Made by a program: the position numbers and the translations under genes. A stretch of DNA of 64,000 nucleotides. Source: Reichenbachiella ulvae (GTDB taxonomy: Bacteria > Bacteroidota > Bacteroidia > Cytophagales > Cyclobacteriaceae). The notes under the pieces are model-generated. The model made no database searches, was not told the origin of the DNA, and saw only the letters and a list, made by a program, of their open reading frames with translations. This document shows, one piece after another, positions 1,745 to 23,477 of the stretch. Positions within the stretch are counted from its first letter, which is position 1, and the number at the start of each line of letters is the position of its first letter. The stretch lies in the NCBI RefSeq assembly GCF_025833875.1, contig NZ_JAOYOD010000001.1:4473501-4537500 (forward strand), read 5' to 3'.

Positions 1745-4700
1745 ATGAACACACCGACAATCCAGGTATATTCTCCCCAAAATGCGATACGAATAGTTAC
1801 TGCTGCTTCCCTCTTTGATGGGCATGATGCGGCCATCAATATTATGCGTCGCATTATTCAGGCCACAGGTGTGGAGGTCATTCATTTGGGTCACAATCGC
1901 TCCGTGGATGAGATTGTCAATTGTGCCATACAGGAGGATGTGCAGGCCATTGCGATTACTTCTTACCAAGGTGGACATGTGGAGTATTTCAAGTATATGT
2001 ATGATTTGCTCAGAGAAAAGGGTCGTCCAGAAATAAAAATTTTTGGAGGCGGAGGCGGAACCATTCTACCTGAAGAGATAAAGGAGCTCCATGATTACGG
2101 CATATCACGAATCTACAGCCCCGACGATGGACGTGAAATGGGATTGCAGGGGATGATCAACGATATGATTGAGGCCTGTGATTTCCCAATTGGTCAAAGT
2201 CTAAATGGTGAAGCCAATGAATTGTCAGCAGTTGAGCCTTTGGCCATTAGTCGTTTGATCACTGCTGCAGAAAATTTTGCTGACACGAATAGAGAAATTT
2301 TAGACGGTGTACTATCCAAAGGGAAAGAAGTAAAATCACCAGTACTCGGCATAACTGGAACTGGAGGGGCCGGAAAGTCATCGTTAGTAGATGAACTCGT
2401 CCGCAGATTTTTGATGGATTTTGAGGATAAGCGCATAGCAATTATTTCGGTGGATCCATCAAAGAGAAAAACGGGTGGAGCACTACTCGGTGATCGCATC
2501 CGTATGAATGCCATCGACCATCCAAGGGTCTACATGAGATCTCTCGCTACCAGACAGTCCAATCTGGCCCTTTCGAAGCATGTCAAAGAAGCAGTAGACA
2601 TTGTGAAAGCGGCGGGATATGATTTGGTCATTTTGGAGACAAGTGGAATTGGTCAGTCGGACACTGAGATTACGGATCACTCTGATCTTTCGCTTTATGT
2701 CATGACTCCAGAATATGGAGCCGCTACCCAGCTGGAAAAAATCGATATGCTGGATTTTGCTGACATTATTGCGCTGAATAAATTCGATAAGAGGGGGGCT
2801 CTGGATGCACTGAGGGATGTGAAGAAACAATACCAACGCAATCACCAGCTTTGGGATGCCAAAGAAGAGGAACTGCCCGTTTTTGGGACTATAGCGTCTC
2901 AGTTCAATGATCCGGGGATGAATCAGCTCTATGCTCAGATCATGAAGTCGATCGATAAAATATCGACCGCTGACTTCAGCCCCAAAATTCAATTGACTGA
3001 AGAGCAATCTGAAAAAATCTATATCATACCACCTAAGCGCGTTCGTTACTTGTCCGAAATTTCGGAAGGCATTCGTGATTACGATCAGTGGGTGGATCGC
3101 CAAAAGGAAATTGCACAGAATCTTTACAGTGTGCACAATACCATCCAGCTAGCGAGTGATCAGTCTTTGATTGAGAATCTGGATGAACTTTACGAAAAGT
3201 TAAGCCTTGATTTAGATCCTAGAAACAAGAAACTCCTGGAGGAATGGAATGCGAAAAAGGCCAACTACGAATCGGACGAGTTTATATATCAAGTAAGAGG
3301 GAAGGACATCAAAGTACAAACGAAGACCCTTTCTCTATCCAAGACCAAAATACCAAAAGTATCGCTCCCGAGGTATGAGGCCTGGGGGGATATACTCAAA
3401 TGGTCTCTACAGGAGAATGTGCCGGGAGAATTTCCATATACTGCTGGGGTATTTCCTTTCAAGCGTCAGGGAGAAGATCCTACACGTATGTTTGCTGGAG
3501 AGGGAGGTCCAGAGAGAACCAACAGGCGTTTTCATTATGTATCGATGGGTTTGCCAGCCGCTAGACTATCGACTGCTTTTGATTCTGTGACACTTTATGG
3601 AGCAGATCCGGATTTTCGTCCTGATATCTATGGTAAAATTGGCAACTCAGGGGTGAACATTTGTTGTCTGGATGATGCGAAGAAGTTGTACTCTGGTTTT
3701 GATCTGACTGCCCCGACGACATCTGTGTCGATGACCATCAATGGCCCTGCTGCTACTATCTGTGCTTTCTTTATGAATGCGGCAATAGATCAGCAGTGCG
3801 AAAAGTACATCAAAGAAAATGGACTGGAGGATGAGGTAGAGCAAAAAATCAATGCCCTATATCAGGACAAAATTAGACCCCAATACCAGGGAGAGCTACC
3901 TGAAGGAAACAATGGATTGGGCTTGATGCTATTGGGAGTAACCGGAAATCAGGTGCTTCCTATGGAGATTTATCAGCAGATCAAAAAGGATACTTTATCC
4001 AAAGTAAGAGGTACCGTGCAAGCCGATATTTTGAAGGAGGATCAGGCACAGAATACTTGTATCTTTTCTACAGAATTTTCTCTCCGAGTAATGGGGGACG
4101 TACAGCAGTATTTCATAGATCAAGCCGTAAAGAATTTTTATTCCGTTTCTATCTCCGGGTATCATATCGCCGAAGCAGGAGCTAATCCGATCACTCAGTT
4201 GGCACTGACGCTATCGAATGGTTTTACCTTCGTGGAGTACTATGTGTCCAGAGGCATGGATGTCAATGATTTTGCGCCTAATCTGTCTTTTTTCTTTTCC
4301 AATGGTATCGATCCAGAATATGCGGTGATTGGTAGAGTGGCACGTAGAATCTGGGCCAAGGCCATGAAACTGAAGTACAATGCAGATGAGCGTTCTCAGA
4401 AGTTGAAGTATCATATACAGACGAGCGGTCGCTCCTTGCATGCACAGGAGATCGATTTCAACGACATCAGGACGACTCTTCAGGCACTATATGCGATCTA
4501 CGACAATTGTAATTCGCTTCATACCAATGCCTACGATGAGGCCATTACCACGCCGACAGAGGCTTCCGTTAGACGGGCGATGGCCATCCAACTGATCATC
4601 AACAAGGAGTTGGGGTTGGCCAAGAACGAGAACCCGCTGCAGGGGTCGTTCATCATCGAGGAGTTGACAGATTTGGTAGAGGAGGCTGTGCTGGCGGAGT

Positions 4701-18939: not shown

Positions 18940-19510
18940 ATGGGTAGAAAATACGCCATACGAGATCAGCTTTCGATTCATAGCGTGACGTTTACGGTGG
19001 TAAACTGGATAAATATATTTATACGAGACTATTACAAAGAAACCATATTATCAAGTCTGAAGTATTGTCAAGAAAACAAGCATCTGCAAGTACATGCTTA
19101 TTGCATCATGACAAGTCACGTTCATTTGATTATTAGTGTGTCTGAAGGAGAGCTCTCAGATGTAATTCGAGATTTAAAGAGTTTCACATCTAGACAGATC
19201 AAGGAAATCTTGCAGGATAAGGCATATGCAGAAAGTCGTAGAGAGTGGCTGTTGTGGATGTTCGAAAGAGCGGGAAAGAAAAATAAAAGGAATGGAGATT
19301 TTCAGTTGTGGCAACAACACAATCATCCAATAGAATTGTCAACCAATGAGATGATAGATCAACGATTGGAGTACCTGCCCGATCCGGCAGGGGGGTGTAC
19401 ACAACAATCCGTTAGAAGCAGGCTTCGTTTTTAAAGCAGAAGATTGGGTGTGGAGTAGTGCCAGACAGTATGCTGGTGAACAAGGTGAATTAGAGCTATG
19501 TTATCTGTAA
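18940..19510 (+). pseudogene. REP-associated tyrosine transposase (IS200-like Y1 family), frameshifted
   Basis: The intact N-terminal part (from ATG 18940, MGRKYAIRDQLSIHSVTF) has the HUH-type motif in AYCIMTSHVHLI, as in Y1 transposases and RAYTs. The frame is lost near 19376, where 22 extra bases containing CCTGCC-cgatcc-GGCAGG have entered. After them, in another frame, the family's expected tail HNNPLEAGFVFKAEDWVW continues to a TAA at 19508-19510. Without the insertion the protein would be about 182 residues, normal for a RAYT. The uninterrupted frame instead ends at 19434 with an unrelated Arg-rich tail. The gene is probably inactive. Confidence 0.8.
19374..19398. repeat. 22-bp palindromic insertion inside the RAYT gene
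   Basis: CCTGCC at 19374-19379 and GGCAGG at 19386-19391 form a 6-bp stem with loop CGATCC, followed by a G run. The flanking codons (EYL and HNNPLEAG) are contiguous in the family, so about 22 bases are extra. CCTGCCCGAT also occurs at 18895-18904, just inside the left REP arm. Confidence 0.6.
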
Positions 19511-19994: not shown

Positions 19995-20744
19995 ATGGAA
20001 CGAAACGAAAGGTTGATAGAAACAATTAAATCAAATGAATCGGTTCGAGAGGGTTGGCTACAAGCATTTTCTAAGCAAATCAGTGATGAAGATTTAAAGT
20101 GGGGGGCAGGAATTGTTTGGTATGATCATCAGAGGCTTGCCTTGAAATCCTACTTTATAGAAGATTCACTAACAGAGACAAAAATACATTTTTACACTTG
20201 TGGCAGGCTTGACGAGTATCTTATTAACCACTACAATGATCGAATATTAGAATATGGAATGGCACACATATCTTACGCCCTTTTAAGTGATCATCGGGGA
20301 CTGATACGTCGGTATGCGGATTTGGCTCATCCGGGTTATGATAAGATCACCAAAAAAGGATCTATTATTTATGCCATGCAGTTGGCTATAAAAGATAGGC
20401 TAGATCATGGGTACGTGGATATTTTGGATGCACTAAGTCAAAAGAAAGGACAAACTGCCATCCAGCCTGATGTGCGTTTTTTTAGAGCTTTGATCGAAAA
20501 GGATAAACCGGGTTGTGAAGCAGCAATTAATGAGTTGTTGACACCAAAAAAACACAAGCAACGCAATAAATACATGGAGCTGGTCAATGAGTTTATATCG
20601 CATCCGGCCATTGGTTATACCAAACTGGCCTGGCTTAAAGGGGTAGAAGTAGTAATAGATAACCCTTTGGTTCCTAACTCTCTGTTGCCTATCAATCCAA
20701 ATGAGAGTTATGCGGAAGAATATGAGTTTTTAAAGCAATATTAA
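19995..20744 (+). CDS. Imm49-like immunity protein
   Basis: The 249-residue protein has no signal or membrane segment. Its C-terminal half carries the pattern I associate with the Immunity 49 family: FFRALIEKDKPGCEAAINEL, then KHKQRNKYMELVNEF, then TKLAWLKGVEVVIDNPLVPN, close to the C-terminus. It starts 7 bp after the toxin-like fragment, the usual toxin-then-immunity order in polymorphic toxin loci. It would neutralise the cognate nuclease in the cytoplasm. The ATG at 19995 is supported by the ACGAAACG-rich start with no better upstream codon. The family name rests on memory of the pattern, not a search. Confidence 0.7.
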   Translation: MERNERLIETIKSNESVREGWLQAFSKQISDEDLKWGAGIVWYDHQRLALKSYFIEDSLTETKIHFYTCGRLDEYLINHYNDRILEYGMAHISYALLSDHRGLIRRYADLAHPGYDKITKKGSIIYAMQLAIKDRLDHGYVDILDALSQKKGQTAIQPDVRFFRALIEKDKPGCEAAINELLTPKKHKQRNKYMELVNEFISHPAIGYTKLAWLKGVEVVIDNPLVPNSLLPINPNESYAEEYEFLKQY

Positions 20745-21164: not shown

Positions 21165-21195
21165 GGATCAAGAATGTACCCCCCCCCGCTCTTTT

Positions 21196-21250
21196 AAGTC
21201 TTAGCGCAGCGTGACTTGAAAGCATGGATGGTTGCAAGTCTCCAGACTTG
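21196..21250. repeat. Two REP-like hairpins
   Basis: A first stem pairs 21191-21200 with 21213-21222 (one mismatch) around TTAGCGCAGCGT. A second pairs CAAGTC at 21235-21240 with GACTTG at 21245-21250. The GTCTTAGCG core is shared with the RAYT-flanking arm at 19537-19545. Confidence 0.5.
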
Positions 21251-21522
21251 TTGGGTTAATTTTGCTAAATTCAGAGGGTTGACCATCAATCTATAGAATG
21301 AGTCCGGCAGGTGGATTGGGTTTCCTGCTAGTAGCTGGGAGATTACCCCTGTCCTCCGGAAGGTGTGCGATCTACGGACTCGTACCTCGTCCTTCGTCGT
21401 GTAATGACGTTCCTTGTAAGAGATTTCCCCGAAATGACCTGCAAAATGTTATCCAGAATGTAAGTCAAATCATTGCCACCTTGACTACCCTCTCAAAATA
21501 CGACCAAGACATTCGTAAATCG

Positions 21523-21771
21523 TACAATCAGGTTCCAAAGTGTACTTAATAAGTTTCAAAACCTACTCAATAGGTTCTAAAGCCTACTGAAATATCATAT
21601 TCCCTACTTAATAGGTAGCATACCCTACTAGAATTTCATTTTCCCTACCTGATAAGTGTCAAAGTCTCACTAAAAATTTAATCAAGCTCACTAATAAGTT
21701 CCATTGTCTCATTAGAAATTCACTAATGATCAATAAAAATTCAATGGGACTCAATGTTTATGTCTAATCCG
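21523..21771. repeat. Degenerate tandem array of 20-21-bp units
   Basis: Units anchored on TACT/TCACT-like starts begin at 21523, 21543, 21564, 21585, 21605, 21626, 21646, 21667, 21688, 21709, 21730 and 21751. Spacings are 20 or 21, mean 20.7. Two sub-types partly alternate: one with AATAgGT (for example 21543, 21564, 21605) and one with AAATTTCA or ATATCA (for example 21585, 21626). No frame stays open through the array. Confidence 0.65.
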
Positions 21772-21907
21772 AACAGAAATGGTGACTAAATGGAAGGGTT
21801 TTGTTACGAAAGGGTAAGAAACAGTGAGACATTGAATCAATGGCCTGAAGGTTCTATGGAGTTTTCCTTCAGATCGGAAGGTGCTATTAGATCCCATCGA
21901 TCAAATG

Positions 21908-21975: not shown

Positions 21976-22338
21976 TTACAGACTGGTACTAAGAAGAGTG
22001 CGGACCTCTGCAGGCGAAACGCCATATTTTACCAGTTGTCCTTGCTCGTCGAATAATATCCCACAGGGAACGAAACCAGGGCTCCCTAGATTTTTTATCA
22101 AATCTTCATTCGCTTGTACCTGTGCCCAGTCCATATCGTTTGTGGAGATGGCACTTTGGGCATCTTCTGCGTTTTCTTCCTTATAGTTGACCCCTATGAT
22201 GTTGAGTTTTTGGCCAAAATCATTTTGTAGTGCTTTGATTTTTGGTGTTTGGTCCAGGCAAGGCTGGCACCAGCTGCCCCAGAGCTGCAGATAAGTGTAT
22301 TGTCCGGCCGTAGCTTGTAGTTGAGCCCCCTCAGACAG
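21976..22338 (-). pseudogene. TlpA-like thioredoxin-fold protein, 3' fragment (cut by IS)
   Basis: Read on the minus strand from the IS edge, this frame encodes EGAQLQATAGQYTYLQLWGS followed by WCQPC, the CxxC of a TlpA/ResA-type thiol-disulfide oxidoreductase. It continues through NIIGVNYKEENAEDAQ and ends RTLLSTSL at the TAA 21976-21978. The cis-Pro loop is GFVPCG. It has no start of its own because the insertion sequence separates it from the 5' part at 23470-24018. Joined across one copy of the 10-bp target duplication, the two parts give a continuous frame of about 295 residues. Confidence 0.85.
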
Positions 22339-22383
22339 CAGGGCTGTTGCATTCTAAAAAATGGATTAACTTGAAAATTAAAA

Positions 22384-22938
22384 ATGGCATCAGAAAGTAT
22401 CATTTGGTATTTAGGAAAAGTGAAGGATCACAGGCGTGGTGCGGGTCAGCGACATTCTCTGGAATTGGTACTGGTCATCGTGCTGATGTCGGTAATGAGC
22501 GGCTACTATGGTTATCGTGCTATTGGAGATTTTATAGAAAGAAATAGAGAGAACTTATTGTCTACTTTTCAGCCCAAACAAGACAGATTACCGACTTTTT
22601 ATACTATTCGAAGAGTGTTGATGGGATTGGATTTTGATTCCTTTTCTCATCAATTCTATCAGTGGAGTAAAGCCTATGTTTCGATAGAGTCTGGAGAGTG
22701 GCTTAGTGTAGATGGCAAGGCCATCGGTGGTACAATGAGTGATTATTCAAAGTCGTATCAGAATTTCATCAATCTAGTGACCGTATTCGTTTCCAGACAG
22801 AAAATGGTATTAGCCAATGGAGAAGTCATTAACTCAAAAGAGAGTGAAATACCTGTAGTTCGTCAATTAATAGAGATGCTGGATCTCAAAGATGTGGTCT
22901 TTACTATGGATGCTCTTCATTGTCAAAAAAAACGGTAG
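22384..22938 (+). CDS. ISAs1-family transposase, N-terminal part
   Basis: This 184-codon frame has the family's N-terminal region (FLGK-like opening YLGKVKDHRRG, then SLELVLVIVLMSVMSGYYGY) and the first two catalytic acids: D110 in SVDGK and D176 in TMDALHCQ. It ends shortly after an A8 run (22925-22932) where the rest of the enzyme continues one frame back. Full-length ISAs1 transposases are about 370 residues, so this is the first half. A -1 slip on A-AAA-AAA would join it to the second frame; a loss of one A is the alternative. RNA-guided or host control is not suggested. Confidence 0.85.
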   Translation: MASESIIWYLGKVKDHRRGAGQRHSLELVLVIVLMSVMSGYYGYRAIGDFIERNRENLLSTFQPKQDRLPTFYTIRRVLMGLDFDSFSHQFYQWSKAYVSIESGEWLSVDGKAIGGTMSDYSKSYQNFINLVTVFVSRQKMVLANGEVINSKESEIPVVRQLIEMLDLKDVVFTMDALHCQKKR

Positions 22939-23477
22939 AAGTGATTATAGCTAGTGGAAATAATTATGTAATTGGAGTGAAGAAAAATCAAAAGACACTC
23001 TACCAGAGCATCGAAAAGTGTGCCCAAGAAAAGCCTATAGGTTATTATTCTCAGCTAGAGAGAAACAAAGGAAGAATAGAAAATAGAGATGTAACAGTGT
23101 TCAATTTGCCAGAGGAAATAAAAAAACAATGGACTGGTGCACAACACGGCATCAAAATTAGAAGAGAAGTAAAAGTCAATGGACGCTACAGGGAAGAAAA
23201 CGCGTATTATTTAAGCAGCATAAAGAATGGAAGTGCATTATTATACAACTATGGGATAAGGAATCATTGGCACATTGAAAACAGTCTACACTGGACCAAA
23301 GATGTAACGATGAAAGAAGATGCCTCTAAAATCAGATTAGGCAACGCTCCATCAATTATATCCACGCTTAAAAATGGTGCAATGAATATATTTAGAAAAC
23401 AAGGCATGAATCAAATAGCAAAGGCCACCAGACTGGTAGCCAATGATATTGAGACTCTAAACAAACTAATCAATTAG
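22920..23477 (+). CDS. ISAs1-family transposase, C-terminal part (-1 frame)
   Basis: This frame overlaps the first by 19 bases. From the A8 run it encodes KKTVEVIIASGNNYVIGVKK, then NQKTLYQSIEKC, and later the HWHIENSLHWTKDVTMKED stretch with the catalytic Glu (HIEN). It ends ETLNKLIN just before the right inverted repeat. Its own TTG start at 22920 is unlikely to be used; it is probably made as a fusion by frameshifting or is dead. The conserved DDE acids are all present between the two frames. Confidence 0.85.
   Translation: MSKKTVEVIIASGNNYVIGVKKNQKTLYQSIEKCAQEKPIGYYSQLERNKGRIENRDVTVFNLPEEIKKQWTGAQHGIKIRREVKVNGRYREENAYYLSSIKNGSALLYNYGIRNHWHIENSLHWTKDVTMKEDASKIRLGNAPSIISTLKNGAMNIFRKQGMNQIAKATRLVANDIETLNKLIN

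Follow-up and report, generated by a model that had tools for sequence, protein, structure and literature searches.

The tandem array and its surroundings

The window, which is the whole stretch of 64,000 nucleotides that was analysed, contains at 21485..21795 of the + strand a helically phased tandem array of 15 units of 20-21 bp, delimited by a unit-chain model and by autocorrelation and designated W. The genome of the window is referred to as G000 and its 5.5-Mb contig as C1. According to a mechanical ORF table, W perhaps lies between convergent genes. Just upstream, at 21185-21303, is a REP-like element. Close copies of it lie at C1:2719194, C1:2720349 and C1:491421; the genomes G000, G003, G004 and G007 contain shorter ones. 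Further upstream are an Imm49 immunity protein domain (19995-20744; Pfam, E 9.7e-15), which suggests a toxin-immunity neighbourhood, and an ORF with a Y1_Tnp domain (18940-19434). Downstream, a transposase with a DDE_Tnp_1_assoc domain (Pfam) is split over two overlapping ORFs (22384-23477) and adjoins a minus-strand fragment that reads as thioredoxin-like (about 22000-22400). An Rfam search returned no family, the best E values (0.2 and 0.33) being far under the gathering scores.

The earlier note on this DNA described at least 12 units, starting every 20 or 21 bases, at 21523..21771. This region (+ strand) is the well-formed part of the array by Tandem Repeats Finder, autocorrelation, Fourier analysis and stop counts. 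The array is real and larger than was claimed: W reaches about 40 bp further to the left and 25 bp further to the right, where the outer units fit weakly and, by eye, the two units at each end look weak. The units start on the + strand at 21485, 21505, 21525, 21546, 21567, 21587, 21608, 21628, 21649, 21670, 21691, 21712, 21733, 21754 and 21775 in the unit-chain model, in which W scores 176.7 against 78.7 +/- 8.0 for 6 letter shuffles. The 14 junctions (10 of 21 bp and 4 of 20 bp) reproduce the proposed mean spacing of 20.7. The autocorrelation of 21523-21771 has its highest peaks at lag 42 (z 5.9), lag 21 (z 5.8) and lag 41 (z 5.6). The combined comb (lags 20/21, 40-42 and 61-63) gives 1.30, a value that none of 300 dinucleotide shuffles reaches, the highest of them being 1.05. 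Lags 20, 21, 41 and 42 are absent from the top six autocorrelation peaks of the two flanks. The partly alternating sub-types that had been noticed agree with the periods of 21 and 41 given by Tandem Repeats Finder, and the phased TACT steps belong to the unit, whose + strand consensus is near TAATAGGTNNCAAANCCTACT.

Homologous copies in the same genome

Two homologues of W occur in G000, one at C1:3566919 (L018:2920-3325) and the other at C1:5003197 (L019:3198-3603). These align with each other gap-free over 406 bp with 82.5% identity and 71 substitutions. W lacks 42 bp, or two units, relative to both copies. The blastn coordinate offsets change from 18529 to 18487 against L018 and from 18251 to 18209 against L019, which places the shortfall within 21575..21597 (+); MAFFT alignments put the gap elsewhere. 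On the left of it, 21530..21575 (+) matches L018:3001-3046 at 85% and also has its homologue in L019, from position 3279. On the right, the best-kept block, 21597..21682 (+), is 87% identical to L018:3110-3195 without gaps, and 21597-21738 (+) matches L019 at 77% (145 columns for 142 bases). Read by eye in an alignment of the copies, the segment 21775..21835, to which no strand is assigned, is a possible right end with decayed units in the opposite orientation that are clearer in the L018 and L019 copies.

The flanks of the three copies are unlike one another. The L019 copy is placed directly upstream of a gene of the Cro/C1-type HTH_26 family (PF13443) at G000:C1:5003698. The W and L018 copies stand alone: tblastn finds there neither an HTH_26 gene nor a gene of the PQLLE family (NCBIfam NF052641, E 3.7e-70), and tblastn and a profile scan find none of either in the window.

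Arrays across the genome and in relatives

A model built from the three G000 copies leads to arrays in Reichenbachiella versicolor DC003 (G006), of the same genus as the window. Six places in this genome hold 11-19 units with the consensus AGAACCACTAAAAAATGACTC, nearly all exactly 21 bp apart. A second model, at E <= 0.01, has matches in 7 of 39 genomes (G000, G001, G006, G007, G014, G031 and G035). Its matches in G031 and G035, as well as L139 in G000, are not arrays on reading. A scan of a collection of genome contigs matched 20 stretches, six of which are from R. versicolor. Of the rest, L082 arises artificially from runs of masked N, L086 is a simple short repeat and the other 12 contain no period-21 array. 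The exact pattern has no occurrence in viral contigs, and single-site matches in G005 and G009 are, on reading, no arrays.

The earlier note proposed to look for arrays of the same period elsewhere in the genome, and these are abundant. The G000 sample comprises 1.244 Mb, i.e. the window and 59 stretches of 20 kb, with L103 left out since it lies inside the window. It contains 25 periodic regions, 19 of them outside frames of at least 200 codons, and the best period is 21 in 14 of these 19. The 14 arrays were taken at a score of 0.92 or more. Two of them (the one in the window and L249) come from knowingly chosen DNA; the arrays of L227 and L245 were already known, but their stretches came from a regular grid. 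In 400 kb of G001, two of the four periodic regions have period 21, one being its PQLLE2 array. In 400 kb of G002 no periodic region lies outside long frames and one lies inside a 1064-codon frame; in 400 kb of G005 there is a single one, of period 12. Neither sample has a period-21 region outside long frames. G002 and G005 also belong to the genus of the window, and neither an HTH_26 nor a PQLLE gene was found there; with cut-offs of E 1e-10 and 1e-20, the genomes G002 to G005 yield no relative of either family.

The 14 G000 arrays represent several unlike unit types. By mechanical ORF tables, about four appear to lie between convergent genes (L223, L245, L250 and perhaps W), four between divergent genes (L105, L120, L227 and L234) and six between genes in tandem. 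Among the sampled arrays only L227 and L249 adjoin an HTH_26 or PQLLE gene.

Some of the other arrays deserve a separate description. L105:9115-9495 and L120:14587-14907 are TGCA-rich with alternating 20- and 21-bp junctions and form a separate G000 type; one of the two precedes a gene whose product resembles, on reading, thymidylate synthase. L223:16093-16491 and L239:3955-4335, distant in G000, share by eye the unit type AAAATGACC... in opposite orientation. At L234:7117-8383, a period-21 array with CGATACAAAG units immediately precedes a 214-aa gene of unknown family, which may represent a third family linked to arrays. At L243:13687-14715, a period-21 array with CATGGC units is on the 3' side of a 233-aa gene that has a sub-threshold PQLLE match in NCBIfam (E 2.4e-4; 20.9 bits against a cut-off of 80). 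The L234 and L243 genes are doubtful as PQLLE relatives, with an hhalign probability of 1% each.

Linkage to HTH_26 and PQLLE genes

The DNA upstream of the HTH_26 and PQLLE copies found in 29 genomes was surveyed for arrays by autocorrelation and by a stricter unit test. PQLLE has 11 copies in G000, G001, G006, G007 and G014, of which 10 have an upstream array by both tests; the divergent G000 copy L164 has none. HTH_26 has nine copies in G000, G001, G006, G007 and G010, one of them (L156) cut by a contig end. The remaining eight all have an upstream array by autocorrelation, and seven have one by the unit test. The G010 copy L151, which is AT-rich, fails the latter (82.7 against 76.3 +/- 10.5) and shows no clear array. 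As controls served the 244 ORFs of 150 codons or more in 400 kb of G000. By autocorrelation, four of them reach the weakest cases (L148 and L151); three of these adjoin further arrays (L105, L109 and L120) and one lies in a 200-codon ORF (L117). The linkage extends to homologous genes of different genomes, since the homologous PQLLE genes of G001 and G006 are both preceded by an array (L071/L132), as are the homologous HTH_26 genes of G000 and G007 (L019/L126). The association of arrays and genes is confounded with kinship, as four of the five genomes having both belong to one genus.

PQLLE is present in three of 395 genomes of the class (G000, G286 and G385). In G385, of another family, both copies are preceded, at a distance of several hundred bases, by a periodic stretch in which a repeat of 63 bp, or three times 21, is visible (L169:549-1121, on its reverse complement, and L171:621-1093). 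The G286 copy has no upstream array above the cut (0.78).

The AlphaFold model of PQLLE (14-member alignment, mean pLDDT 93.1) is all-helical and duplicated, with two 56-residue helices, and Foldseek returned no PDB match for it at E <= 0.001. With pI values of 5.0-5.9, the three PQLLE proteins examined are acidic; for two HTH_26 proteins the values are 7.8 and 9.5. No PQLLE relatives were found in plasmid and phage collections. A tblastn search of plasmids with four array-linked proteins gave no good relative; there was one HTH match, of 32% and covering 56% of one query. The HTH_26 protein has a weak PADLOC match to PDC-M69A (E 3.8e-4). The name PQLLE was not found in the open-licence papers searched.

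Unit types and the possibility of a mobile element

Each gene-linked array has its own consensus. When the arrays are cross-scored by unit profiles, W and L018 are linked to the G000 HTH_26 array, the profile of W matching L018 and this array best, and five stand-alone R. versicolor arrays match the first PQLLE array of their own species. The stand-alone L125 of G001 matches both the first PQLLE array of G001 and the R. versicolor type. On the other hand, the stand-alone L127 of G014 fits the G006/G001 type and not the two PQLLE arrays of its own genome. Paralogues within a genome mostly have unlike units, the exceptions being G001 HTH1/PQ2 and G006 HTH1/PQ1. The W type also resembles the units of the R. 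versicolor PQLLE array. Consequently, with two genomes having similar HTH and PQLLE arrays, the unit types are not absolutely private. For PQLLE the similarity of the arrays follows that of the proteins (Mantel rho 0.58, p 0.0014, 10 arrays), whereas the array type does not significantly track the protein for HTH_26 (rho 0.20, p 0.18, 7 arrays).

A mobile element, or a cassette of gene plus array, would also yield dispersed copies. W would then be a decayed insertion of a 406-bp unit copied by a transposase or recombinase. The unlike flanks of the three G000 copies, and the alignment of two of these over 406 bp, are consistent with it, as are the R. versicolor stand-alone arrays L068, L069 and L070, which align over about 250-317 columns, and the inverted unit possibly present, by eye, at one end of the copies. 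However, the copies have no internal transposase gene, and neither a target duplication nor a clear terminal inverted repeat is seen by eye. No IS21 IstB was recognised in the eight genomes G000-G005, G025 and G026. Copying does not explain that most arrays of the genome have unlike units, and the arrays recur upstream of homologous genes in different species. We therefore regard a mobile element as unlikely, although it is, with a neutral minisatellite, the main alternative. As for the PF01695 matches, those over the cut-off in all eight genomes are in frames of 474-549 codons. Two G000 matches, one of which falls short of the cut-off, were inspected and resemble DnaA and a ClpC-type protein.

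Spacing and helical phase

The spacing of the units was counted in 29 of 31 sequences, L164 and L151 being dropped for having no array. Of 398 junctions, with 15-27 bp allowed, 305 are of 21 bp and 65 of 20 bp, together 370, a test that leans towards this range, as the unit profiles were learned with 20-22 bp allowed. The odd junctions are concentrated at the ends, with 25 of the 28 among the first or last three of their array. The units of the same 29 arrays are on average 37-64% alike. In all nine arrays tested the strongest Fourier peak is at 10.3-10.6 bp, above the 21-bp fundamental. For W it is at 10.3 bp, and the spacing is kept while the sequence drifts, in agreement with the helical phasing proposed earlier.

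A plain Cro/C1 dimer operator predicts a dyad-symmetric unit. Such units are found in four of the 29 arrays at p < 0.05, W having p = 0.066. The 29 p-values pooled exceed chance (Fisher p 5e-4); a possible reason is that blocks of opposite orientation occur within some arrays.

A neutral minisatellite, in which slippage during replication or unequal crossing-over produces the repeats and a bias of mutation favours 21 bp, would account for the degenerate units, their 42-bp higher-order pattern, the two whole units by which W is shorter and the difference of the units between places. It is nevertheless improbable. Junctions other than 20 or 21 bp are few at 37-64% unit identity, and 21 is the best period in 14 of the 19 periodic regions outside long frames in G000. 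Also against it are the linkage to two gene families and the two genomes of the same genus, whose sampled 0.8 Mb shows no period-21 region outside long frames.

Coding potential and intrinsic curvature

A decayed coding repeat with a heptad of seven codons, raised for W in the earlier note, is suggested by the unit length, as 21 bp are seven codons. The earlier statement that no frame stays open through W holds: the six frames contain 4 to 15 stops in 249 bp, against 5.6 and 7.1 expected for its two strands, and no open run exceeds 50 codons. Nor is a frame open in the L018 and L019 copies, and the 71 substitutions between them show no clear codon pattern (18/29/24), so that the heptad origin is not supported for W. 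In the other arrays the evidence is less uniform. One frame of L067 has a single stop, and in nine of the 14 G000 arrays an open frame of 87-184 codons spans most of the array. This is made easy by the 21-bp period, yet those arrays may still be coding. On the other hand, five of the 14 keep no frame, none of nine arrays tested has a stop-free frame, with most frames near chance, and the 20-bp units break the frame (five of 11 junctions in L161 and seven of 15 in L105). A coding repeat is thus a very poor candidate.

It is just as hard to maintain that the function lies in intrinsic curvature from phased A-tracts. The AA/TT steps of W are periodic at 10.5 bp more strongly than in any of 300 letter shuffles, a signal that a 21-bp array yields by itself as a harmonic. 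When curvature is computed with a wedge table, 27 of 30 sequences fall on the curved side and five are at z -3 or below, the strongest being G001 PQLLE2 (z -10.9); however, 25 of the 30 are between z -2.7 and +1.0, and the GC-rich arrays L161 (+0.9) and L165 (-0.5) are not clearly curved. The suggestion that phased steps set the curvature of W thus receives little support (z -1.0 against block shuffles). A mild tendency is general; strong curvature is not.

Comparison with known repeat systems

Plasmid iterons are tandem repeats near a rep gene that bind the Rep protein. Like the arrays described here, they are direct repeats in tandem, about 20-22 bp long and in phase with the helix, placed near the gene of a small DNA-binding protein, and different systems have different units. 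W shares with iterons the direct repetition in tandem at about 17-22 bp, in phase with the helix. It lacks their replicon character, because it is located on a 5.5-Mb contig without a recognised adjacent Rep: Pfam found no Rep initiator gene in six window ORFs beside W and two ORFs beside L019. In contrast to iterons, the present arrays are chromosomal, many occur per genome and many stand alone.

Plasmid centromere arrays, such as parC of the ParR systems and sopC, likewise consist of some ten direct repeats next to the gene whose product binds them. Here, however, several unlike arrays share a chromosome, and no ParM- or ParA-type partner was recognised on reading the flanking ORFs of W, L018 and L019, eight of which were also searched with Pfam. 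The bacterial intergenic repeats STRR of cyanobacteria, REP/BIME and BOX are also dispersed, intergenic and repetitive, but the units described here are locked in length to two helical turns and specific in sequence to their locus. Finally, IS21 and Tn7-like ends carry repeated binding sites of about 20-22 bp as inverted blocks at the two ends of the element. The similar length of the sites is set against longer blocks of one orientation here, copies without transposase genes and no IS21 IstB recognised in the eight genomes searched.

Proposed function and significance

On balance, and with moderate confidence, we favour the explanation that W is one of a dispersed class of iteron-like, putatively protein-binding arrays that are largely private to their loci. 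Such an array would work in the manner of an iteron or a centromere array. The helical phase, the register kept despite drift and the linkage to a DNA-binding gene family make the binding of a protein along one face the best explanation; for W this is the best inference from its phasing and kept spacing. The arrays of this class consist of about 8-20 degenerate units of 20-21 bp, which present the same face of the helix every two turns. A sequence-specific protein may bind the units side by side on this face and form a cooperative filament. W itself is a stand-alone, partly decayed copy of the type of array that precedes the HTH_26 gene at G000:C1:5003698. The most likely, putative binder of this type is the HTH_26 protein, and the PQLLE proteins may be partners rather than binders.

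Gene-linked arrays may serve autoregulation. Stand-alone arrays such as W may be remote docking or titration sites, or ties between distant loci. The reading of the arrays as operators is weakened by the approximately four G000 arrays, perhaps including W, that are located between convergent genes, because an array in such a position has no promoter to serve.

A wider and more tentative proposal is that Reichenbachiella and its kin possess an undescribed chromosomal system of many array-protein pairs, each array being a series of helically phased sites with a sequence and an HTH_26- or PQLLE-type reader of its own, and with extra stand-alone arrays of matching type scattered over the chromosome. 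Such a system would diversify in the manner of plasmid incompatibility groups; its role may be to organise the chromosome, to tether it or to titrate the proteins. No description of such arrays was found in the titles and abstract beginnings of the open-licence papers searched.

The arrays may account for some spurious heptad-repeat ORFs. If the proposed explanation is true, a free-living bacterium contains a large natural set of arrays of protein sites spaced by two helical turns, mostly with their own sequences, and linked to a gene family (PQLLE) known so far only by name. These would provide natural pairs for testing how DNA-binding proteins and their sites change together, a system to test how helically phased arrays nucleate filaments, and a test of private arrays as anchors of the bacterial chromosome.
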